A model generated the notes under the pieces. It did no database searches. It was not told the DNA's origin and saw only the letters and a list, made by a program, of their open reading frames with translations. 64,000 nucleotides of DNA. Origin: Methanoculleus sp. (GTDB lineage: Archaea; Halobacteriota; Methanomicrobia; Methanomicrobiales; Methanoculleaceae). The number at the start of each line of letters is the position of its first letter. Position 1 is the stretch's first letter. The translations under genes were made by a program, and so were the position numbers. The stretch is from positions 1 to 64,000 of the forward strand of contig NZ_JAJGBK010000013.1 of assembly GCF_020696975.1 (NCBI RefSeq), in the 5' to 3' direction. Shown here piece by piece: positions 32,039 to 58,835 of the stretch.

Positions 32039-33010
32039 TCACATACAACTATATTCCATTTTTAAGTTGAACTCAATTGCAGAGATGCTACTACCTTTTG
32101 GCATGTTACTTTGGATCGCACATAATGCAGACCTAGTTCGCCGATCCATTTCCTTGCATACGAGGATTCCTGTCACTTTATCGGTATTGAATTCCTTCAT
32201 TATCTGATTCATATAGTCTAATAGTTGGATTAACGCACTGGAGGGCGATTTGTCTCTTTTTAATTCAATGACAGTGTATTTGTCGTCCTGCTTATGCTTA
32301 CAGAAGATGTCAATATAGGTGCCATCTCTTGTACGATAATGCTGGTTCTTATCGACGATCTCTAAGTCTGGGAACAGTTGATGGAAATTCCGCCGAATTA
32401 CATCCTCTAAATGGAGTTCTAACATATTTTCTATGACTAACGTTTTGACTCCTTCAGAATTGACATCAAGATCTGCCTTAATAGGGTCACTTGTTAAGAA
32501 AAACTCTTCAAGCGCATCAAATTCTGCAATGATCTGGGATAACTCTTCAACTGGCAAGTCCATAGGGGCGATAGTACCAACGATTGTATTTCCCAAGGCC
32601 GGATTACAAACTCTTTCTACGATACTATCCGCCTTTCCACACCTTCTAGCAACATTTGTTATGAACTCCCTGTATGTAGTGAAATCCTCCTCTGAAAGAT
32701 CCCCATCTTCATCTCCACTTCCGCTCAAAATGAACTTCTTTATACTTGCTCTGCTTTCATATGGTAACGTGACAAACTCCCCATAACAGGCAAGAAAGAC
32801 ATCGGGATGTTGTGTACGCCGATATTTATCAGTTAAGAGAATCTTCCCAAGATAGTACCATTTGTTATCATGTTTGAGAAAGTTAAATCCCCTTTCTGTC
32901 ACTCTTAGTTTGCGTTTCTTAACGGATATTAATTTATAAGACTTTAAGGCTGTCAATCTCTCAAAGGTGGCTTCATACAACTTAGTTTTATTCATGTGTG
33001 TCATGAACAT
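32039..33010 (-). CDS. NucS/DUF91-like PD-(D/E)XK nuclease-domain protein
   Basis: A 323-residue protein with a winged-helix-like N-terminus (YEATFERLTALKSYKLISVK, KLRVTERGFNFL) and a C-terminal nuclease domain. D234 in GTYIDIFCK, E249-x-K251 in YTVIELKRDK and QLLDYMNQI match the NucS pattern of archaeal mismatch endonucleases. The middle region is not recognised. ATG 33010 overlaps the TGA of the small upstream gene (TGATG), so the two are coupled. Codon use is strikingly AT-rich against the flanks, a sign of transfer. A defence or repair role is inferred. Confidence 0.7.
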   Translation of the reverse strand: MFMTHMNKTKLYEATFERLTALKSYKLISVKKRKLRVTERGFNFLKHDNKWYYLGKILLTDKYRRTQHPDVFLACYGEFVTLPYESRASIKKFILSGSGDEDGDLSEEDFTTYREFITNVARRCGKADSIVERVCNPALGNTIVGTIAPMDLPVEELSQIIAEFDALEEFFLTSDPIKADLDVNSEGVKTLVIENMLELHLEDVIRRNFHQLFPDLEIVDKNQHYRTRDGTYIDIFCKHKQDDKYTVIELKRDKSPSSALIQLLDYMNQIMKEFNTDKVTGILVCKEMDRRTRSALCAIQSNMPKGSSISAIEFNLKMEYSCM

Positions 33011-33195
33011 CAGATCCAAGCATCTATCTCTTCAACCAGTGTCTCTTCCAGATCCTCATCGATAACTTTGAGAATAAAACCGGCAATTTCTCTTCTTTCG
33101 TCTACAGTAGTTGATACATCAAAACTACCAATATCTTCAAGTTCTGAAATAAACCGGAAAATAATCTCTTCGTTTTCTTCGTGGTCGATCACCAT
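33010..33195 (-). CDS. Small acidic protein upstream of the NucS-like nuclease
   Basis: A 61-residue acidic protein (many Glu/Asp, net strongly negative) with no recognised family; predicted mostly helical. ATG 33195 is preceded by a good ribosome-binding site (TTGAGGGGCG). Its stop overlaps the nuclease start, implying stoichiometric expression. It could be an inhibitor, a DNA mimic or a missing N-terminal segment of the nuclease separated from it; none is proven. AT-rich like its partner. Confidence 0.55.
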   Translation of the reverse strand: MVIDHEENEEIIFRFISELEDIGSFDVSTTVDERREIAGFILKVIDEDLEETLVEEIDAWI

Positions 33196-47362: not shown

Positions 47363-47434
47363 GGGCCGATAGATCAGGGGGAGATCGCTACCTTGGCATG
47401 GTAGAGGCCGCGGGTTCAATTCCCGCTCGGTCCA
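47363..47434 (+). tRNA. tRNA-Ala (GGC)
   Basis: A 72-nt cloverleaf: acceptor GGGCCGA/TCGGTCC plus A, D arm GATC-AGGGGGA-GATC, anticodon arm CTACC-TTGGCAT-GGTAG with anticodon GGC, T arm GCGGG-TTCAATT-CCCGC. No intron and no encoded CCA. A TTTTTATC box lies about 35 nt upstream. The AT-rich defence island begins immediately downstream. Confidence 0.95.
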
Positions 47435-47945: not shown

Positions 47946-49220
47946 ATGAGGACAAGTATTGATTGGGATAAACCAAATATCCTCTACATAAATCGAGAAT
48001 GCATCCCTCTCGATGATGCTCTTCAGACGGATAAACTTCGTTCTAAGATCGAGCCTTGGCTATCAGCAATCTTCCAAAGTGAGCACTTGTCACTGTTGGT
48101 TGGCAATGGCCTAGCTATAGCAACTGCAGAGATTGCAGAGTTACCACCTCCAACATTAAACCGTATAAAGTTCGAAACCTTCGGCAGTCAAATAAGTGGA
48201 TGGTCTGACGTTCAGGCAGAAAAAATGGGCAGAGGAATAGCAAATTTTGAGGATGATCTGCGCTCTGCACTGGAATTACTAAATGGCCTCCGAATTCAGA
48301 ATGACGTTGAGAATGCCATATCTCTTGAAGAGGAAATTAACACTCAGTTAGTAACTTTCATCAATCAAATATTAGAGACCGAAAACAAGTTCATCAACAT
48401 CGATGAGGTTCGTAAACAGGAGGCTATAGGTTATCTTAAATCATTTTTAGTAAGCTTTGCGAGTAGAGCGGCTACAAGAGATCGACTACACATTTTTACG
48501 ACGAATTACGACCGTTTCATTGAGTATGGTTGCGACCTCGCAGGAATAATAATTTTTGATCGCTTTATTGGAAAAATTCACCCCGTGTTTCGAAGTACAA
48601 AGATAGAGTTTGACTGCCATTATAACCCCCCAGGTATTCGAGGCGAGCCGAGGTACGTTGAGGGGGTAGTAAGATTTACAAAATTGCACGGCTCGATTGA
48701 TTGGCTGTTTTATGATGGAATGATCATAAGAGACCTTTTGCCATTCGGTGCTGATGGGAAAGCTACCGGAATTGTAAAAAATCAAGCTGTTATTTATCCT
48801 AATTCTGCGAAAGGAATCGACACAGCATATTATCCTTATTCGGAACTGTTCAGGGATTTTTCTTCTGCCGTCTGTAGACCAAATTCAACTTTGGTCATAT
48901 ATGGATATAGCTTTGGCGATTCTCATATAAACACCATATTAGAAGATATGCTCACAATTCCCTCAACGCATATGGTAATCATCGCATATGGGGACGAGGC
49001 CAACAGAATTAAGCGGTTCGTTGAGAGAAACAATGCTGCACAATTCACCTTATTAATAGGCAATCACTTTGGAGATCTCCGCACTCTATCAGATAACTAC
49101 CTTCCAAAAGCTGCTATAGACCGTATTACGGAGAAAAAACAGAAAATACTAGAGAGAAGGGGATTTGATTATTCTAAACTCTCAAAAGAAGGAAATACGG
49201 AGTTTACTGATGGTGAATAA
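47946..49220 (+). CDS. SIR2-like NADase-type defence protein
   Basis: A 424-residue SIR2-domain protein. LSLLVGNGLAIA (residues 48-59) corresponds to the NAD-binding G-x-G loop, TTNYDR (185-190) to the TNYD motif, TKLHGSIDW (245-253) to the catalytic His, and YGYSFGD (319-325) to the G-Y-S motif. In SIR2-HerA defence systems this domain degrades NAD+ after phage sensing. The downstream HerA start overlaps its stop by 11 bp. Start ATG 47946; a tiny overlapping ATG reading frame at 47940 lies just before it. AT-rich. Confidence 0.85.
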   Translation: MRTSIDWDKPNILYINRECIPLDDALQTDKLRSKIEPWLSAIFQSEHLSLLVGNGLAIATAEIAELPPPTLNRIKFETFGSQISGWSDVQAEKMGRGIANFEDDLRSALELLNGLRIQNDVENAISLEEEINTQLVTFINQILETENKFINIDEVRKQEAIGYLKSFLVSFASRAATRDRLHIFTTNYDRFIEYGCDLAGIIIFDRFIGKIHPVFRSTKIEFDCHYNPPGIRGEPRYVEGVVRFTKLHGSIDWLFYDGMIIRDLLPFGADGKATGIVKNQAVIYPNSAKGIDTAYYPYSELFRDFSSAVCRPNSTLVIYGYSFGDSHINTILEDMLTIPSTHMVIIAYGDEANRIKRFVERNNAAQFTLLIGNHFGDLRTLSDNYLPKAAIDRITEKKQKILERRGFDYSKLSKEGNTEFTDGE

Positions 49221-51300
49221 TTGCTGTGACTTTGATTCTATTCGCAATTTTACTATAGGAACTCTGACATCTGTTTCTCCGAATGAATGGAAAGTCCTGC
49301 TGGAACACGATGCACCTAGTAGCACGGCAATAAATACTGGAACACCTACGCTATTCCCAAAAATAAATGGGTATGTATTAGTTCCCAATGAATCGGGTGC
49401 GTTAATTGGCATGATATCATGGATAGGGATTGAACAATCTCAATATCCAAAAAGGAAGGGGTTCAAGGATTTTGATCTTATAGACCTTCCTTTCCCTCAA
49501 AGGGTTATGTTAGTAACCCCGATGGGGGAATTGAGGTGCAGAGATGACGTGTTTAAAGTCGAAAGAGGAGTTTTCAACTATCCTTCTGTGGGTGATATTG
49601 TCATTCTCCCAACCAAGGAGCAGCTTGAAGCTATAGTCGAGAATAAGGATGGTAGGGCAAATTTTAGAATTGGTGTTGCACCCACTGCTGCGAATTGCCC
49701 GGTATATGTTAATCCGGACAAATTATTTGGGCGCCATTTAGCGGTTTTAGGTAACACGGGAAGCGGAAAATCCTCATCGATCGTCGGGATAATCAGGTGG
49801 TCAATTGAAAAGGCCAAGCAAGCATCAAGAACTGGTAATGTTAATGCAAGGTTCATTATTCTTGATCCTAATGGAGAGTATGCGGGCGCGTTTGACAATT
49901 TATCTCGAAATGTTAGAAAATTCCGAGTGAAAATTGATACAGATTCCCCTGATTTTAGACAACTCCGTGTACCCGCTTGGTTGTGGAATAGTTATGAATG
50001 GATTGCAATAACTGATGCAAGCGGTAAAACCCAAAAGCCTCTTTTAAGGCAAGCACTGCGAGAACTTAAATCTGGAGGTCAAGATGATAATACAGTCTAT
50101 AAATATGGAAGATTCTACGCGGGCTGCCAAATCGGGATACGAAGCGATCTAGCTGGTGGGCCTTCAAGGTTTAAAGGAAAGCCCGGTAAAAATGATTTTG
50201 GAAAGAAATTAGCTAGTATTTGCAAAGATTTAGAAACTGATATTAATGATTGCAAGCATCCGATCGGAGAGTTGTTATCTAATCTTTTAATTGCTTTGAA
50301 TAATGTGAGAAAACGAAAATATCGCTCGTTCAACAACGACCGTGGCGAGTTCGTCGAGTATTACGATGACTTTGAAAAGAGGGATGTTGAAGAAATTATA
50401 TCTGCATTTGAGGAATTTTTAAGTGAGATAGAATGGACAACCACTCCTTTGGGTCCAGATGAGGATTCACCAATTTCATACGATGTAGCATCTTTACCTG
50501 ACCATATCGAACGGCTCTCGCAAGAAAAAAGTGCACAACAATATCTTGACTTTTTTATTATGCGGATTCGGACTATGCTTACAGATAGCAGAATGTCCTC
50601 AATAATAAGTACAGCTGAATCTGAGACGTTAGAAGAATGGCTGGAAACTTACATCGGCAGTGAAAATGCAGATAACGGGGAAATCGCAGTCATTGACCTC
50701 TCACTTGTTCCCTCAGATGTAATCCACCTCATAGTGGCGGTAATCTCAAGGATAATTTTTGAATCACTGCAAAGATATCGACGCTATTATGGAAAGGAAT
50801 TGCCAACGGTAATGGTCATAGACGAAGCTCATACCTTTATTAAAAAATATTATGAAAACCAAACCGAATTCACGCCGTTAGAGATGTGCTGCAAAATATT
50901 CGAGAAGATTGCTAGAGAAGGAAGAAAATATGGGCTTGGCCTGTTAATCTCTTCGCAAAGACCCGCTGAATTATCCCCTACAGTACTATCTCAATGTAAT
51001 ACATTCTTACTTCACAGATTGGTCAATGATAAAGATCAAGAACTTGTTAAGAAATTTGTACCTGACAATCTAGGAAGTTTGTTAAAGGAATTACCTGTTC
51101 TGCCTACTAGGAAAGCGATTTTACTTGGTTGGGCCTCTCCGATTCCAATTCTTGTTGAAGTCGATGAGCTCGAAGAAAAATACAGGCCAAAATCATCCGA
51201 TCCATCTTTCTGGAGTGTTTGGACACAGCAGGAAGAGCGTGAATTGTCATGGCCTGATCTTGCAGATGAATGGCAAAAAGGAGGGCATACTGAAGTTTAA
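49210..51300 (+). CDS. HerA-type hexameric ATPase partner of SIR2 (DUF87)
   Basis: A 696-residue FtsK/HerA-class translocase. An N-terminal HAS-like barrel region is followed by Walker A GNTGSGKSSS (181-190), Walker B VMVIDEAH (534-541), LLISSQRPAELSPTVLSQCN as sensor and arginine-finger region, and a long helical insertion in between. ATG 49210 overlaps the SIR2 stop; the frame's earlier codons belong to the SIR2 gene. Known SIR2-HerA pairs form one supramolecular complex. Its TAA stop overlaps the stop of the convergent TGT-like gene. Confidence 0.88.
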   Translation: MVNNCCDFDSIRNFTIGTLTSVSPNEWKVLLEHDAPSSTAINTGTPTLFPKINGYVLVPNESGALIGMISWIGIEQSQYPKRKGFKDFDLIDLPFPQRVMLVTPMGELRCRDDVFKVERGVFNYPSVGDIVILPTKEQLEAIVENKDGRANFRIGVAPTAANCPVYVNPDKLFGRHLAVLGNTGSGKSSSIVGIIRWSIEKAKQASRTGNVNARFIILDPNGEYAGAFDNLSRNVRKFRVKIDTDSPDFRQLRVPAWLWNSYEWIAITDASGKTQKPLLRQALRELKSGGQDDNTVYKYGRFYAGCQIGIRSDLAGGPSRFKGKPGKNDFGKKLASICKDLETDINDCKHPIGELLSNLLIALNNVRKRKYRSFNNDRGEFVEYYDDFEKRDVEEIISAFEEFLSEIEWTTTPLGPDEDSPISYDVASLPDHIERLSQEKSAQQYLDFFIMRIRTMLTDSRMSSIISTAESETLEEWLETYIGSENADNGEIAVIDLSLVPSDVIHLIVAVISRIIFESLQRYRRYYGKELPTVMVIDEAHTFIKKYYENQTEFTPLEMCCKIFEKIAREGRKYGLGLLISSQRPAELSPTVLSQCNTFLLHRLVNDKDQELVKKFVPDNLGSLLKELPVLPTRKAILLGWASPIPILVEVDELEEKYRPKSSDPSFWSVWTQQEERELSWPDLADEWQKGGHTEV

Positions 51301-52739
51301 TTCTCTTTTAGGCTCGCAATGCTTACGGTATGGGTCTCCGATGCATTGGTTAAGCCAGAAATGATCGCTTTAATCTTCTTCTGCGATTGCCCCTGCTTTA
51401 GTCCTTTCGTTAGATGTTTGATGGTAATTCGATCCTTCCCTTCCAATGCCAACTCTAGGGACTTAAGGTATGATGACGGCCCAAGAAACACAATTTCTTC
51501 AGCCATTGTAAACTCTAAATATTGAGGGATTTGGCGTTTAAGTTTTTGCGCAAACTCTTGACATTCTGCTTTAGTTTTAATCGTCACGTCGTAATCTGGG
51601 TTGATAGATCTATCGGGTCTAATTAAACCATATTTAGCCGAGAGAATAAACCAGGGACTATTCGACAGCTCCGCATACTTGCGTTTCAATAAAAAGGCTC
51701 TTCCCGAATAGGCATCCTTTGCCAAACACTTTACTCCTTTGTTCTTCCGTTTTCCACAGGATATTACTGTGATCTGAATGGGTTTTGCTGGATTAACCTC
51801 TCTTTGGTCTCGTTTTACGACAACTTTAGTGTTTAAAGATGAGATATGATGTTTGATCTTCTCTGCAGTAGTGTTAATCGGGTCACATGAAGCTGTGACG
51901 CCACTGAGTGGCGATAATATATTTGTCTCAATAAAGCACCTCGTTTGATATATACGGTGCACATGGTGGCACCTTGGATCTTGATACTTCTTCTTGTATT
52001 GAAAAATCCATCCCTTATAATCAGCGGCGTCTGCCCCAATACTCTCTAAAAACTCATGCCTTTTGGGATTGTAAACGCCTAAACAGAACACTCTATCATC
52101 AGGCCATTCGCTTTTTATTGCTTTCACTATTTCAGCGATATGTTCCCTATTCGAAGATGCAAACCTGGCAGTATTTTCTCTCTTGGTTAATAGACCACCA
52201 ATTGCAATTTCTTCGAACCCCATTTTCTTTAATTTTTCATAGCACCTCAGATAATCACTTAGAGACTTACCCTGAGCAACACCGACCAGTTTGAAGTTGC
52301 ATTCAAGAGAGGAGTAAGTGTTCATTGCGACTTCAGCGCTATCCACCGTTCTTTCCCAATCTCCAAGTACATCGAGCATTATCCCCCTCTCGATGTTCAT
52401 TTGGTTGTATCTTTCAAAGAGTTCTGGATAATCTAGAATAGCGCCATTTTTTGTAAAAACTCCGCTATCAGCGATTTTTGTAATACATTCTCTCACTAAC
52501 TGACCCTTGGTACATCTTTGAAAGTCACCGTCAAAGGGACACTTCCCATCAACAACACCACAATATTCTAAGTCTCCACAGGGGAACTGCGAAGCCATTG
52601 CCCGGAAGTTTTCGGTCGTGCAAGCCTGGAGCATGAGACCTACCTTTACAGGATGCCTTTCGAAAGGCAGACCTGCAAGTATTCTTAGGCTCATCGGGCG
52701 GTCAGCCACAAAATGGGGTATTAAGGTATTGCTTATCAT
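51297..52739 (-). CDS. tRNA-guanine transglycosylase-like (DpdA-type) enzyme with C-terminal DUF6884
   Basis: 480 residues. The TGT barrel is clear: D91 in IADSGVF (bacterial TDSGGF), D123 in GIMLDVLGD, VAQG (154-157), GFEEIAIGGLLTKRE (174-188) and LGVYNPKRHEFLESIGADAADYKGW split at 220-244, where D240 matches the nucleophile Asp. Four cysteines at 54, 60, 67 and 76 may bind metal. From about 323, ITVISCGKRK, KDAYSG, FILSAKYGL and PDYD define DUF6884. DpdA enzymes swap guanine for preQ0 in DNA. ATG 52739 is 13 bp after the HerA-like stop; AT-rich, last gene of a three-gene operon. tRNA as substrate cannot be excluded. Confidence 0.82.
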   Translation of the reverse strand: MISNTLIPHFVADRPMSLRILAGLPFERHPVKVGLMLQACTTENFRAMASQFPCGDLEYCGVVDGKCPFDGDFQRCTKGQLVRECITKIADSGVFTKNGAILDYPELFERYNQMNIERGIMLDVLGDWERTVDSAEVAMNTYSSLECNFKLVGVAQGKSLSDYLRCYEKLKKMGFEEIAIGGLLTKRENTARFASSNREHIAEIVKAIKSEWPDDRVFCLGVYNPKRHEFLESIGADAADYKGWIFQYKKKYQDPRCHHVHRIYQTRCFIETNILSPLSGVTASCDPINTTAEKIKHHISSLNTKVVVKRDQREVNPAKPIQITVISCGKRKNKGVKCLAKDAYSGRAFLLKRKYAELSNSPWFILSAKYGLIRPDRSINPDYDVTIKTKAECQEFAQKLKRQIPQYLEFTMAEEIVFLGPSSYLKSLELALEGKDRITIKHLTKGLKQGQSQKKIKAIISGLTNASETHTVSIASLKEN

Positions 52740-52752
52740 TTTGCATTTCTTT

Positions 52753-54702
52753 CTATGATTGCGTTGACAAAAATGTTTTAATCCGCTCATTTGCGTCAAC
52801 CGCACGTATGGGAATAGGAATGCCGGTCATGCCTGTTGCATCATAACTTGCTATTATCCAGTCTCCTATGGTAAATTTTATCGTTTGACGTAACATTTCA
52901 TCAGATAAACCAAAAGCCTCCTGTACTCGTTCTCGATCATGACGTCTAGGAAGCTTACTGACGAAGTAGGTGTGAGGCTGAGACATAATGTTAGTGTTAA
53001 GATAGGTTGTTCTTTGGGTAGCAATACCTATACCTAGCCCAAATTTCCTTCCCCTTCGTGATAACATATGTGCAATCTCATTAGAACTAGCGTAGGAGGA
53101 GTTTTGTCCGGTACTGCTTGGAATAAACTCATCGGCTTCATCAAATATGAAACTAACAAGCGGAGCGATCAATCCATTCCTTCTCCTTGATTCGTATAAG
53201 GCGTTCCCAAGTTCTTGAGTAAAGTTACGTAATCGATGGGGATCATGGGACTGAATAATAGTTAAACTTGAGTGATTTTGGCTATTCAGCTCTTGTAATA
53301 GCATATCCATTGTTGTGGTAGATTGTACTGGTAGTTTTGTACTTGACTTTATTCGGCGATTATTATCCTCTAGATTGTCTTTAAAGCTTGTTAAATTCCC
53401 TTTAGCAGTGCTTGTCAGTTTTATCCCAAGGTTTATATCTTTTAGATAATCATTGGAATTTAATTGCGATGTTCCAGAACCGCCTTCATCAATGCCTGAT
53501 GACCATATCGTGGCTTGATGCGCCTTTGGTGGATTGTCTGGAGGGTTTAAAAGTGTCTCAACTGCCCCTATTATTGTCAGCAACAAGTCCGAAGTTAATA
53601 ATTGAGATGAGTCCTTTTTTAAATTCGAAACCAATCGACGGATGTTTTGTTCGTAACCTCCAATATTCCCTTTAAACAGTATTTCTTCATTTTGATTTAA
53701 TAACTGCCCTAGTGTTGTTTTTCTTTCACTAAAAAGTCGAATTTTATTTTTGGTAAACAGCGAATTAAGCGTGCTACTATAACTATCTTTAATTCTTTCC
53801 AAGTGTTTGGGATATAAGGACGTTTTAATGAGAGATTGAACTGCCTTATTTTGTAACTCTGCATCCTTCTCATTACTAGCCAAGTACTGAATTACACTCT
53901 CAGGAAATGTCTGCTCTCCTAGTGCAATTAGCTGTGAGTTATCAAGCGCAAAGAGTTGATCAATTAGTAAAACATTATATTCGCTCATTAGGTCAAAAAT
54001 GACGATCTTCACAGGTATTTCTTCTGATTCCGCCTTTTCGAAAATTTTTGCTATTAGAGTACTTAGTAGGTTTGATTTACCAGCTTTTGTGAAGCCAAAA
54101 ATACCAAAGTGCAATCGTAACAGTTCTTCAATATTAATTAAAATAGGAGTCTTTCCGTCTACAAGCCACTTGCCACATTCCAAAGTAAAACCATTGTTTG
54201 AGAGACCTTTATTCACTGCCAAGTGGGTTGCAGCACTTGATAATATACTCACATTAGTTCCTATCATTGGCAATGATGAATCCGCGACTAGGGATCTGCC
54301 TTTATCACTCTCAATAATCTCGTGGTCGGTTGGAGTAGCGATGCATCTAATGATTGTTGTATCCTCGGCTGATTCCTCTTCTTGGTTTGTCCAATCCATT
54401 GAGATGTTACGGGCAGCTTCCATTACAAATCCTGGATACCCATCACTTGTATTCCCAAGGGCATAGTGTATTGGCTTCATTGAAGTTAATTCAAGTATAG
54501 AATAATGCGTCTCTTTCTCAGAGGTCGAAAAATTTCTTGCAGCTAATAAAGTCCCTTCCTTTAAGCTTATCATTGCTTGCCGGGTATACTCAAACCAGAT
54601 TTCGAACTGAAACCTAGTCTGTTCACTTTCTTCAATTCGCATCAAACGACCTGAACGGTTTTTTTCGAATAAGGTAATGGCCTCCCATTCGTTTTCTGAC
54701 AT
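52753..54702 (-). CDS. Second HerA-like ATPase (DUF87), partner of NurA-like protein
   Basis: 649 residues. Walker A GFTKAGKSN (203-211) and Walker B FIFDEADE (518-525) surround a long helical region; RRGRKFGLGIGIATQRTTYL and IMSQPHTYFVSKL match the HerA core. It is only distantly similar to the SIR2-linked HerA, whose Walker A is GNTGSGKSS. It begins 3 bp after the NurA-like stop. HerA translocates DNA and feeds it to NurA in archaeal end resection; here the pair is island-borne rather than the Mre11-Rad50 set. AT-rich. Confidence 0.85.
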   Translation of the reverse strand: MSENEWEAITLFEKNRSGRLMRIEESEQTRFQFEIWFEYTRQAMISLKEGTLLAARNFSTSEKETHYSILELTSMKPIHYALGNTSDGYPGFVMEAARNISMDWTNQEEESAEDTTIIRCIATPTDHEIIESDKGRSLVADSSLPMIGTNVSILSSAATHLAVNKGLSNNGFTLECGKWLVDGKTPILINIEELLRLHFGIFGFTKAGKSNLLSTLIAKIFEKAESEEIPVKIVIFDLMSEYNVLLIDQLFALDNSQLIALGEQTFPESVIQYLASNEKDAELQNKAVQSLIKTSLYPKHLERIKDSYSSTLNSLFTKNKIRLFSERKTTLGQLLNQNEEILFKGNIGGYEQNIRRLVSNLKKDSSQLLTSDLLLTIIGAVETLLNPPDNPPKAHQATIWSSGIDEGGSGTSQLNSNDYLKDINLGIKLTSTAKGNLTSFKDNLEDNNRRIKSSTKLPVQSTTTMDMLLQELNSQNHSSLTIIQSHDPHRLRNFTQELGNALYESRRRNGLIAPLVSFIFDEADEFIPSSTGQNSSYASSNEIAHMLSRRGRKFGLGIGIATQRTTYLNTNIMSQPHTYFVSKLPRRHDRERVQEAFGLSDEMLRQTIKFTIGDWIIASYDATGMTGIPIPIRAVDANERIKTFLSTQS

Positions 54703-54705
54703 GAT

Positions 54706-56526
54706 CTATCTCCTAGCTGAATCTCTCAATGTTCTGAATTTCTGATTTAGTGGATTTATTCGAAACGTTATCTCACTTGATTGGATTAGCCGATCAACAC
54801 GTCTTTTAACGCTTTTCGCACCCCAATCAGCCTTATGTAAGGGATCTGGATATCCAATTACTTCAGGAAAGAGATTCCGTGTCAATATACCTAACAAATT
54901 CATCACTGTAGCCTGGCCATAATTCATTACAGTATTATCCCCAAAGAATGCTGGTTGTATTTCCCCTAAAACATCTGATGAAATTGTGGGAATACTGTCG
55001 CTATTCATAAATTGATTGTCAAAATAAGGATCGAGAAGGCGGTCAAGGAATACGACATGACCCATTAGTGTTTTTGAACCAGAAGATTTCTTATAAAATT
55101 GTCCAAGTGAACGAGCAAAGAGTCTTTCTTGATTGACAAGAAGACCTCGATGTCCTCGAATATATCTTCCTTTCTCATCTTCTTCTACGTGAAGAGACAT
55201 ATAGGCGGAATCAAATTCGACTGTAGCCCATGGGGCTGAGAGATCGTCCAGTTGATAAGCTAGTCCTTCAAGCAGAGAGCGATCTGTCCACGGAAGATAT
55301 TTTACTGGAACTTGTGGATAGTGACCTAACTCTCTCATCACTCCAATATAGTTACGAGAGAAGAACTTTGTTGCTGAATCTTTAACGATTCCTATCAACA
55401 AAATTCTTTTTTCCCAACATTTTTCGATAAGGGCTCTAATCCCAACGTTTATCAAGAAAGCGATGTCTTCTGGGGACATCCATCTCAATCTTTCATGACC
55501 ATTTTCCAAAACAGGATATAACAGTGCTTCAGCCTCCCTCCGATGGAATAATCGATCACAAAACTCCTCGAAGAACCTCACCGTGTCAAACCAAGATGCC
55601 GCAAAATCAAATTTTCGAGATATTTTAAATCCATCATATTCAAATAATTCACGAGCATAAGTTTCGTTCAGTGTTTTTGCCCATTTATTTTTGTCAATAT
55701 TTGTTTTTTGGATTAATTCTTCTATTTGAATCTCATTCTTAGAGTCTAGTTCCTTCACGAGGAATTTCCATCGAGCAAATTTTTTTACAGTAGGTACGCT
55801 CAACCTGTCATTGAATGGGTGGGCAGATGCGACCAGACCATCTCTAAATACTAACTGGCGTGTTCCAATTGGATGACCAAAGAGACGGACCGCACTTAGG
55901 TAGCCGTCTGTTGACATAAGAACTCCACTCAATGATCGATCCATCAAAATAATTTGAGGCGTGCTGAGCGTTGAGGCTGATGCCATCTGATAGGCTAAGT
56001 AAATCTCTGATAATTCCATTAATCGAGTGTGAATGTGAGACAAGTTGATCTTACTCGCATCATCAACAGCAAAATTTTCAAAGCTCACATCCGAAATATC
56101 TCCTGATTCAGCGTACGGAACAGGAATATATGAGACTATGCTTACATCCTGATCCATAGACCACCGTTCGTATGAAAGCTTGGGTGGGTCTGTTTCTATT
56201 CCGATCTTTCCTCTTACTCCGTAAGCTGCAGCAAAAAAAACCATGAAATCTTTAAAGGGATCGGCTGAGCAGGTCCCGTCAATTGCGACAAAATTTAGTT
56301 CTGATTTTTGAAAATACTCCATTATTTTAGAGTTTAGTAGATTCATTGTATGAGGTTTCGAAAACTTTGATTCGAAGTCTATAATTAGCGTGTTTAAAAA
56401 GTCATCATAAAAAGACAATCCATTCTTAGTCGTTTCTTCATATGACTGCTTATAGCGGCTGATAGAGCAATTTAGGGAATCCTGATAGCACCTAAATATT
56501 TTAGATAACATCGATGAATTATGCAT
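54706..56526 (-). CDS. NurA-like nuclease-domain protein
   Basis: 606 residues, longer than housekeeping NurA (about 350-450). The NurA signature is present: FVAIDGTCS (79-87, metal-binding D83), ILMDRSLSG (193-201, D196 in place of the usual LLDGSL), GHRGLLVNQERLFARSLGQ and VVFLDRLLDPYFD. An extra middle segment (about 220-330) is not recognised. NurA is a 5'-3' exonuclease and endonuclease driven by HerA. It heads the operon with HerA and the TGT-like gene. The Gly to Arg change in motif II could affect activity. ATG 56526 or 56511. Confidence 0.78.
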   Translation of the reverse strand: MHNSSMLSKIFRCYQDSLNCSISRYKQSYEETTKNGLSFYDDFLNTLIIDFESKFSKPHTMNLLNSKIMEYFQKSELNFVAIDGTCSADPFKDFMVFFAAAYGVRGKIGIETDPPKLSYERWSMDQDVSIVSYIPVPYAESGDISDVSFENFAVDDASKINLSHIHTRLMELSEIYLAYQMASASTLSTPQIILMDRSLSGVLMSTDGYLSAVRLFGHPIGTRQLVFRDGLVASAHPFNDRLSVPTVKKFARWKFLVKELDSKNEIQIEELIQKTNIDKNKWAKTLNETYARELFEYDGFKISRKFDFAASWFDTVRFFEEFCDRLFHRREAEALLYPVLENGHERLRWMSPEDIAFLINVGIRALIEKCWEKRILLIGIVKDSATKFFSRNYIGVMRELGHYPQVPVKYLPWTDRSLLEGLAYQLDDLSAPWATVEFDSAYMSLHVEEDEKGRYIRGHRGLLVNQERLFARSLGQFYKKSSGSKTLMGHVVFLDRLLDPYFDNQFMNSDSIPTISSDVLGEIQPAFFGDNTVMNYGQATVMNLLGILTRNLFPEVIGYPDPLHKADWGAKSVKRRVDRLIQSSEITFRINPLNQKFRTLRDSARR

Positions 56527-56639
56527 TTGGATACATCAGAGGCTACTATTCGAAAATATATACTCGTTTCGATATCCTTTTGTGATCCTTTTTAGTCCCC
56601 TCCCGAATTAAAAACTTTAACAGTTAGTTTCCACTCCAA

Positions 56640-58499: not shown

Positions 58500-58835
58500 T
58501 TAGTCTGCCTGCAAGATCTCAATGATCCGATCGATGACTGATGTAACGGCCTGGTCGTTGAGACGTCCGGCTCGATAAAGAATCAGGTCGACACTGGCAG
58601 AAAAGAGCCGGTTTGGCCGGATATTGCTCGGTTTGTGGAGTGTTCCCTCTGCAAAGTCGAGTTCAGTAATACCAACGGCATAGCGATCCCGGACCTGCTG
58701 ACTCGTGATCTGGCAGAGAATTACATCGTCTCCTCCGGGCGCCGCAACGACAAGGGCCGGGCGCCTCTTCACGGTTGAGAGATCAGAGAAAGGAAATGGT
58801 ACAACGACAACATCACCCTTTACAAGTCGCTCCAC
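58500..58835 (-). CDS. MazF/PemK-type toxin
   Basis: A 111-residue endoribonuclease toxin: KGDVVVVPFPFSDLSTVKRR (residues 6-25), RPALVVAAPGGDDVILCQIT and the C-terminal RLNDQAVTSVIDRIIEILQ. All family blocks are present, so it looks intact. It overlaps the upstream antitoxin by 16 bp. Cleaves mRNA when the labile partner is lost. Confidence 0.88.
   Translation of the reverse strand: MERLVKGDVVVVPFPFSDLSTVKRRPALVVAAPGGDDVILCQITSQQVRDRYAVGITELDFAEGTLHKPSNIRPNRLFSASVDLILYRAGRLNDQAVTSVIDRIIEILQAD

Follow-up and report, generated by a model that had tools for sequence, protein, structure and literature searches.

A nurA-herA-transglycosylase operon of Methanoculleus sp. as a candidate restriction-modification-like system with a 7-deazaguanine mark

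Introduction

Restriction that depends on 7-deazaguanine in DNA is already known from the Dpd systems and has been proposed for the BRIGADE systems of archaea and, in connection with HerA, for the BRC systems. Here we analyse a further candidate, the nurA-herA-tgt~DUF6884 operon of Methanoculleus sp., which lies in a stretch of 64,000 nucleotides (contig NZ_JAJGBK010000013.1, positions 1 to 64,000; hereafter the window) and encodes a NurA-like nuclease, a HerA-like ATPase and a DpdA-like transglycosylase (TGT) fused to a DUF6884 domain. An initial annotation of this DNA had called the operon a candidate new system; the word candidate is fair, but given Dpd, BRIGADE and BRC the operon is a new variant and not a new kind.

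The bacterial Dpd systems couple a DpdA-type transglycosylase and a DpdC/DUF6884-type domain to DNA-degrading machinery and draw on preQ0 supplied by the host, as the operon would also do with its DpdA-like and DpdC-like parts. The operon differs from them in having no DpdB, in HerA-NurA as its restriction part, in the A-C order of the fusion and in a TGT without zinc motif. Moreover, the dpdD-K restriction genes are absent from the AT-rich island in which the operon lies, as judged by a PADLOC scan and the gene list. The operon may work like Dpd and should not be filed as Dpd. BRIGADE, described in a preprint as haloarchaeal hybrids of Dpd and ARMADA (PMC12458937), shares with the operon the archaeal host and the proposed 7-deazaguanine marks, but employs YprA-like helicases with PLD or PD-(D/E)xK nucleases, none of which is found among the genes of the island, and all reports of it come from halophilic archaea (PMC12458937). 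The BREX-related capture systems (BRC; PMC12839542) also combine a HerA/FtsK translocase with a TGT, and marking of self DNA is proposed for them as well; their components are PglZ, DUF6079, a STAND NTPase, DUF4007 and in many cases GNAT, with no DpdC-like proteins (PMC12839542). The operon has NurA and DUF6884 instead and none of these components, and PglZ, DUF6079, STAND NTPase and DUF4007 are all missing among the island's genes.

HerA and NurA themselves are known as the motor and nuclease of archaeal DNA processing, for example in Thermococcus kodakarensis, with the same folds and motifs as in the operon, whose proteins differ in forming a distinct divergent family that lies in an island together with a dedicated DNA-TGT. 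Thermococcus HerA-NurA degrades both strands of double-stranded DNA from the ends, and its authors suggest a role in the destruction of foreign DNA (PMC12977600). HerA motors are furthermore paired with effector enzymes in SIR2-HerA and other HerA-effector defence pairs; in the operon NurA takes the place of the effector, and an integral third gene encodes a predicted base-modifying enzyme. No published description of a NurA-HerA-TGT set was found in the literature on HerA or NurA with TGT, DpdA or 7-deazaguanine, a search outside which subscription papers and most preprints lay, in agreement with the initial annotation, which knew of no set of this composition.

Gene order and predicted proteins

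The operon occupies positions 56526-51297 of the window on the minus strand, and its three genes are separated by 3 and 13 bp. Their GC content is 0.38-0.42 as compared to 0.60-0.67 in the backbone. Places, sizes, gaps and AT-richness of the genes had been given correctly by the initial annotation, as the open reading frames and the GC content confirm. The features of the operon are:

54706..56526, minus strand, NurA-like nuclease, 606 aa; motif I VAIDGT (D83), LMDRS (D196), VKDS (K382), C-terminal GYPDPLHKAD
52753..54702, minus strand, HerA-like hexameric ATPase/translocase, 649 aa; Walker A GFTKAGKS, Walker B FIFDEADEF, RRGRKFG
51297..52739, minus strand, DpdA-like transglycosylase fused to DUF6884, 480 aa from ATG
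51930..52739, minus strand, TGT/DpdA-like barrel domain, residues ~1-270; D91, D123, Q156-G157, G181-G182, D240; zinc motif absent
52512..52580, minus strand, four-cysteine insertion C54, C60, C68, C76, seen in alignments in part of the TGT clade
51378..51773, minus strand, DUF6884 domain, residues 323-454 (Pfam 6.4e-22, above the cut-off); YaaA/DpdC superfamily; CGKRK and LSAKYG intact
56552..56563, minus strand, putative archaeal TATA box GTATATATTTTC, ~26-37 bp upstream of the nurA ATG, recognised by eye

The putative TATA box is the probable single promoter of the whole operon. A longer version of tgt starting with GTG at 52805 would overlap herA; homologues begin at the ATG of 52739.

The NurA-like protein matches Pfam NurA with E=7.7e-4 and 19.5 bits, under the cut-off of 21, and 10 of the 13 members of its family match Pfam NurA at E<=0.05. 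The ten best fold matches of its structure model are NurA crystal structures; since the model is of low confidence (predicted local distance difference test, pLDDT, of 50), only the fold ranking is used, and with caution. In the family alignment D83 (VDGT) is invariant and D196 (LxxD) nearly so, and KDS and GYPDPLHKAD are strongly conserved. A NurA fold with catalytic aspartates is therefore predicted for the operon's nuclease. A second NurA is encoded elsewhere in the genome. The HerA-like protein matches Pfam DUF87 above the Pfam cut-off (E=2e-12) and has PDLC01055 as closest PADLOC model (E=1.4e-93). The profile of its family matches HerA structures in the PDB, the motor motifs are complete in the alignment, and Walker A, Walker B and the arginine motif expected of a HerA are all present in the operon's ATPase.

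Single-protein comparisons place the transglycosylase less clearly. It scores 17.6 bits against Pfam TGT, under the cut-off of 26.3, and 30.7 of 200 bits against NCBIfam DpdA, far under the cut-off. The PADLOC DpdA model is matched by the protein at 2.5e-9 and by all 14 of 14 members of its clade. When a profile of 14 relatives was compared to the PDB, the sole chain at E<=1 was DpdA (7ui4), though structures of tRNA TGTs are abundant there, and in the fold search with the AlphaFold2 model of the tgt~DUF6884 protein (pLDDT 82) 7ui4 also ranks first (1.9e-9), ahead of tRNA TGTs. Both profile and fold thus make the DNA preQ0 insertase DpdA the nearest solved relative of the TGT, in line with the DpdA-type assignment of the initial annotation. 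The claim that all barrel motifs are present holds for the Asp/Gln/Gly motifs at D91, D123, Q156-G157, G181-G182 and D240, all of which have counterparts in alignments to canonical DpdA and to the archaeosine transglycosylase ArcTGT of the same genome, but not for the zinc motif. The four-cysteine insertion could possibly provide an alternative metal site in the members of the clade that have it.

The C-terminus of the protein is formed by DUF6884, and a domain search detected no PUA or tRNA-binding domain. DUF6884 is related to YaaA (PF03883) and is characterised by the motifs CxxxK and LSAxxG (PMC11701544), both of which are intact in the operon's protein as CGKRK and LSAKYG. DpdC, a YaaA-type (DUF328) enzyme, converts dPreQ0 to dADG (PMC12839542), and in GATOR-GC DpdC scores as DUF6884 (PMC11888242). 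In addition, the DUF6884 of the window protein matches PADLOC DpdC models at 6e-8, as do 9 of 14 clade members with theirs. With DUF6884 placed in the YaaA/DpdC superfamily, a DpdA-DpdC-like fusion is the best reading of the protein, and not the lone DpdA of the initial annotation. Two variants described below speak for this reading, the cyanobacterial loci with a separate DUF6884 gene and the Asgard-phylum locus L133. It is independently supported by a fusion in the reverse order, with DUF6884 N-terminal to canonical DpdA, in cyanobacterial Dpd loci with DpdE, DpdF and DpdG (L096), DpdE and DpdF (L100) or DpdJ (L097). As a side observation, an extra TGT-like open reading frame of ~290 aa stands beside DpdC-DpdA in cyanobacterial Dpd loci (L097:11303-12184, L098:6470-7387, L099:10328-11176, L100:7348-8217); the one in L097, the only one of the four that was scanned, has no PADLOC match.

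Conservation and gene exchange

The neighbourhood check for recurrent HerA-NurA linkage, as proposed in the initial annotation, found such linkage for most homologues. The TGT clade comprises 17 loci, counted after exclusion of the weak matches seen in many archaeal genomes (DUF6884 part only, or distant TGTs), and 12 of them have the complete nurA-herA-tgt order with intergenic spacings of -47 to +94 bp, in archaea (Halobacteriota-type) and two cyanobacteria. The complete loci are those of the window, the same-genus genome G002, G154, G164, G414, G147, Methanosarcina (L044), Methanoperedens (L046 and L047), L051 and the cyanobacteria (L048 and L056), in which a gene of its own, the first of the locus, encodes DUF6884 and another sequence forms the end of the TGT. 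In L054 the end of the contig cuts the locus down to herA-tgt, and L102, a short copy that is the second TGT of G426 and also lies close to the end of its contig, was counted neither as complete nor as lacking NurA-HerA. Of 393 genomes, 9 have the NurA family, 7 the full TGT and 6 both (hypergeometric p ~1e-10), and in all 6 cases of co-occurrence the two are adjacent and in the same order. The three genomes of nine with NurA homologues and no tgt all have broken loci: in G062 the herA C-terminus and tgt are lost, and in G073 and G175 nurA is disrupted and truncated and herA and tgt are gone. The three genes are a conserved unit that co-occurs beyond chance and, as the genes flanking complete loci are mostly unrelated housekeeping genes, a self-contained one.

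Within this unit the transglycosylase has its own history. The TGT of the window shares 68% identity with its G002 counterpart and 60% with the one of Methanosarcina L044, as compared to 33% and 32%, respectively, for NurA. Conversely, the NurA of G002 is 72% identical to that of Methanoperedens L046 and the TGTs of these two are 34% identical. Constraining the gene trees to agree was rejected by the approximately unbiased test (p 3.5e-6 for NurA, 2e-41 for HerA, 9e-33 for TGT); the groups for this test were picked after the trees had been seen and the p values are nominal, and the identities suffice for the point. NurA and HerA travel together, and their lineages have exchanged TGT genes with one another.

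Variant loci and relatives in other surroundings

The locus L133, whose genome belongs to the same phylum as G424 (Heimdallarchaeota), encodes a DUF6884 protein (150 aa), NurA (576 aa), HerA (618 aa) and a DpdA (416 aa) that is canonical, with a PADLOC match of 2.5e-70 and the zinc motif present. As a canonical DpdA stands in the same slot, NurA-HerA pairs with two distinct DpdA lineages, each with a DUF6884 partner, and this arrangement is the strongest evidence for an action of the window enzyme on DNA. In the same phylum, canonical DpdA is found beside other helicases, GajB-like in L125 and DruE/DpdF-like in L122, in a series of loci (L122-L132) most of which have a separate DUF6884/DpdC-like gene nearby. 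By their gene content these seem to be Dpd-like systems in Asgard-type archaea, whereas dpdAB islands had been reported with GATOR-GC from bacterial phyla alone (PMC11888242).

Only three loci of the TGT clade are without NurA-HerA. In Archaeoglobus (L050:7965-16078, genome G137) TGT~DUF6884 adjoins a helicase of Druantia DruE-like type that is spread over two reading frames (311 and 1387 aa), which would be either a split gene or a frameshift. In a Heimdallarchaeota locus (L053:2104-9470) the DISARM core drmA-drmB-drmC is followed by the clade TGT, and no methylase was recognised among the genes scanned. In Thermoplasmatota (L049:4466-9284) SIR2-ORC/CDC6 and CARF6, the latter assigned by PADLOC, adjoin the TGT. 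A TGT is also adjoined by SIR2-ORC/CDC6 and a Card1-type CARF (weak Pfam match) in a different orientation in an archaeon distant from that of L049 (L035:9682-14489). The DpdA-like enzyme with DUF6884 may thus serve as a movable cassette for self-marking, standing in for the DNA methyltransferase in several archaeal and cyanobacterial restriction systems whose backbones are unrelated, namely NurA-HerA, DISARM drmABC, a Druantia-type helicase and SIR2-ORC/CARF6; 7-deazaguanine marking might then be a general, exchangeable alternative to methylation, with NurA-HerA as a restriction nuclease.

Proposed mechanism and alternative explanations

How could the three proteins act together? The operon is real, conserved and modular and probably serves a restriction-modification-like defence; that it constitutes a minimal system of this kind with a 7-deazaguanine mark is the reading we favour, with fair though not high confidence. 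The host would make preQ0 for the archaeosine of its tRNA and the same pool would feed the operon, consistent with preQ0-pathway genes elsewhere in the genome (adjacent QueC and QueD on contig C9, ArcTGT on C4), so that the supply assumed in the initial annotation has a genetic basis. The DpdA-like domain would exchange guanine in host DNA for preQ0 and the fused DUF6884, of DpdC/YaaA type, would turn the nitrile into an amide-type derivative, leaving host DNA with a 7-deazaguanine mark. HerA, as hexameric DNA translocase, would feed DNA into the NurA dimer for degradation of both strands and could supply the energy that DpdB supplies in Dpd. On unmarked invader DNA entry or progress would be allowed, and the mark would block or fail to trigger it. 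Modification of DNA and degradation of unmarked DNA are thus what we infer for the operon.

Several observations weigh against this proposal. The zinc motif CxCx2C...H is absent from the TGT clade in the alignment and present in canonical DpdA and the genome's own ArcTGT. In bacterial Dpd, insertion makes use of DpdB; a profile built on the DndB/DpdB-like proteins of cyanobacterial Dpd loci revealed no such gene in any of the NurA-HerA-TGT loci tested, a search that did not extend to L133. A DpdC-like function of DUF6884 is suggested by distant similarity and published annotation, and the DUF6884 of L053 is degenerate. The associations of TGT relatives with DISARM, Druantia and SIR2/CARF are seen in one locus each. 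Furthermore, HerA-NurA acts on DNA ends, an activity that does not by itself account for an attack on intact circular invaders or for a block of the nuclease by the mark.

The mark might also be a trigger and not a shield, if the transglycosylase acted on invading DNA, for example during replication, and the 7-deazaguanine recruited or licensed HerA-NurA. Such a marking for destruction agrees no less with the gene content, among the relatives of DUF6884 are proteins for which recognition of abasic or mismatched DNA has been implicated (PMC11701544), and there is no DpdB for genome-wide marking. We nevertheless regard it as unlikely, since the mark of Dpd is protective and distinguishes self from non-self (PMC11888242), since 7-deazaguanines shield phage DNA from restriction enzymes (PMC6884629), and since the broken state of NurA homologues without tgt would be expected of a nuclease that does harm when no protection is given, although a nuclease of no use would decay as well. 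Less probable still is a Type IV-like defence, in which HerA-NurA would attack virus DNA that already bears 7-deazaguanine and the TGT domain would be a reader or base exchanger. Phages and archaeal viruses do have such DNA (PMC6884629) and TGT reactions are base exchanges, but the conserved catalytic Asp/Gln/Gly residues together with CxxxK and LSAxxG of DUF6884 suit a synthetic enzyme, the slot is taken by a canonical DpdA in L133, and in relatives the catalysts adjoin DISARM and Druantia parts.

That the operon serves DNA repair or recombination, as an end-processing paralogue of HerA-NurA with an accessory base-exchange enzyme, appears quite improbable. In its favour are the link of HerA-NurA to the processing of DNA ends, the binding of DNA or of damage by YaaA and DUF6884 proteins (PMC11701544) and the second NurA of the genome, yet Mre11 and Rad50 are not among the five genes of the island, and the patchy distribution (9 of 393 genomes), the position next to a tRNA gene in an island of low GC that also holds SIR2-HerA, the swapping of genes and the restriction-type loci of other TGT relatives are signatures of defence. 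Least of all do we expect a tRNA-modifying enzyme, that is a divergent archaeosine or queuosine TGT that stands beside herA-nurA by chance. The protein has a TGT fold and tRNA TGT structures come close behind DpdA in the fold search, but the genome has its own ArcTGT, neither a zinc site nor PUA or tRNA-binding domains are detected, the profile search of the PDB returns DpdA only, and the gene is tightly co-inherited with a DNA motor-nuclease. A lone TGT or tRNA enzyme was rejected as a candidate for the presence of ArcTGT, the missing zinc site and PUA domain, and DpdA as nearest relative.

The surrounding island

The AT-rich block extends from ~47.4 to 56.65 kb of the window at ~40% GC and holds five genes in all, the operon and a SIR2-HerA pair (47946-51300, plus strand) that is convergent with it, the herA stop overlapping the tgt stop by 4 bp. 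The initial annotation had missed this adjoining pair and the tRNA-Ala boundary. The additional features are:

47363..47434, plus strand, tRNA-Ala(GGC), left edge of the AT-rich island (ARAGORN, Rfam)
47946..49220, plus strand, SIR2-family protein of the SIR2-HerA defence pair (PADLOC SIR2 6.3e-171); same island, separate convergent unit
49165..51300, plus strand, HerA of the SIR2-HerA pair (PADLOC HerA 1.4e-285)

As the SIR2-HerA pair shares the island, the operon is half of a two-system defence island. A search around the island for an attachment site revealed no convincing direct repeat of the tRNA-Ala 3' end. A virus-borne origin was rejected: a viral-contig scan contained no relative, and in tblastn against phages and plasmids the TGT query matched DUF6884 only and the NurA query nothing. 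Just right of the island lies a PemK/MazF-type toxin gene (58500-58835, minus strand; Pfam 1.2e-8), and within the high-GC backbone a lone AT-rich gene (32039-33019, minus strand; 326 aa), the C-terminal half of which resembles a PD-(D/E)xK/NucS-type nuclease by eye.

Implications

If the proposed reading is true, the operon would be the smallest 7-deazaguanine restriction-modification unit found here, with three genes and four modules, and HerA-NurA would gain a role in defence that recent biochemistry only suggested (PMC12977600). The tgt~DUF6884 protein would also offer a compact enzyme, without DpdB or zinc site, for the study of DNA base exchange. Moreover, a non-methyl DNA mark would be predicted in methanogens, Methanoperedens, Asgard-phylum archaea and cyanobacteria.

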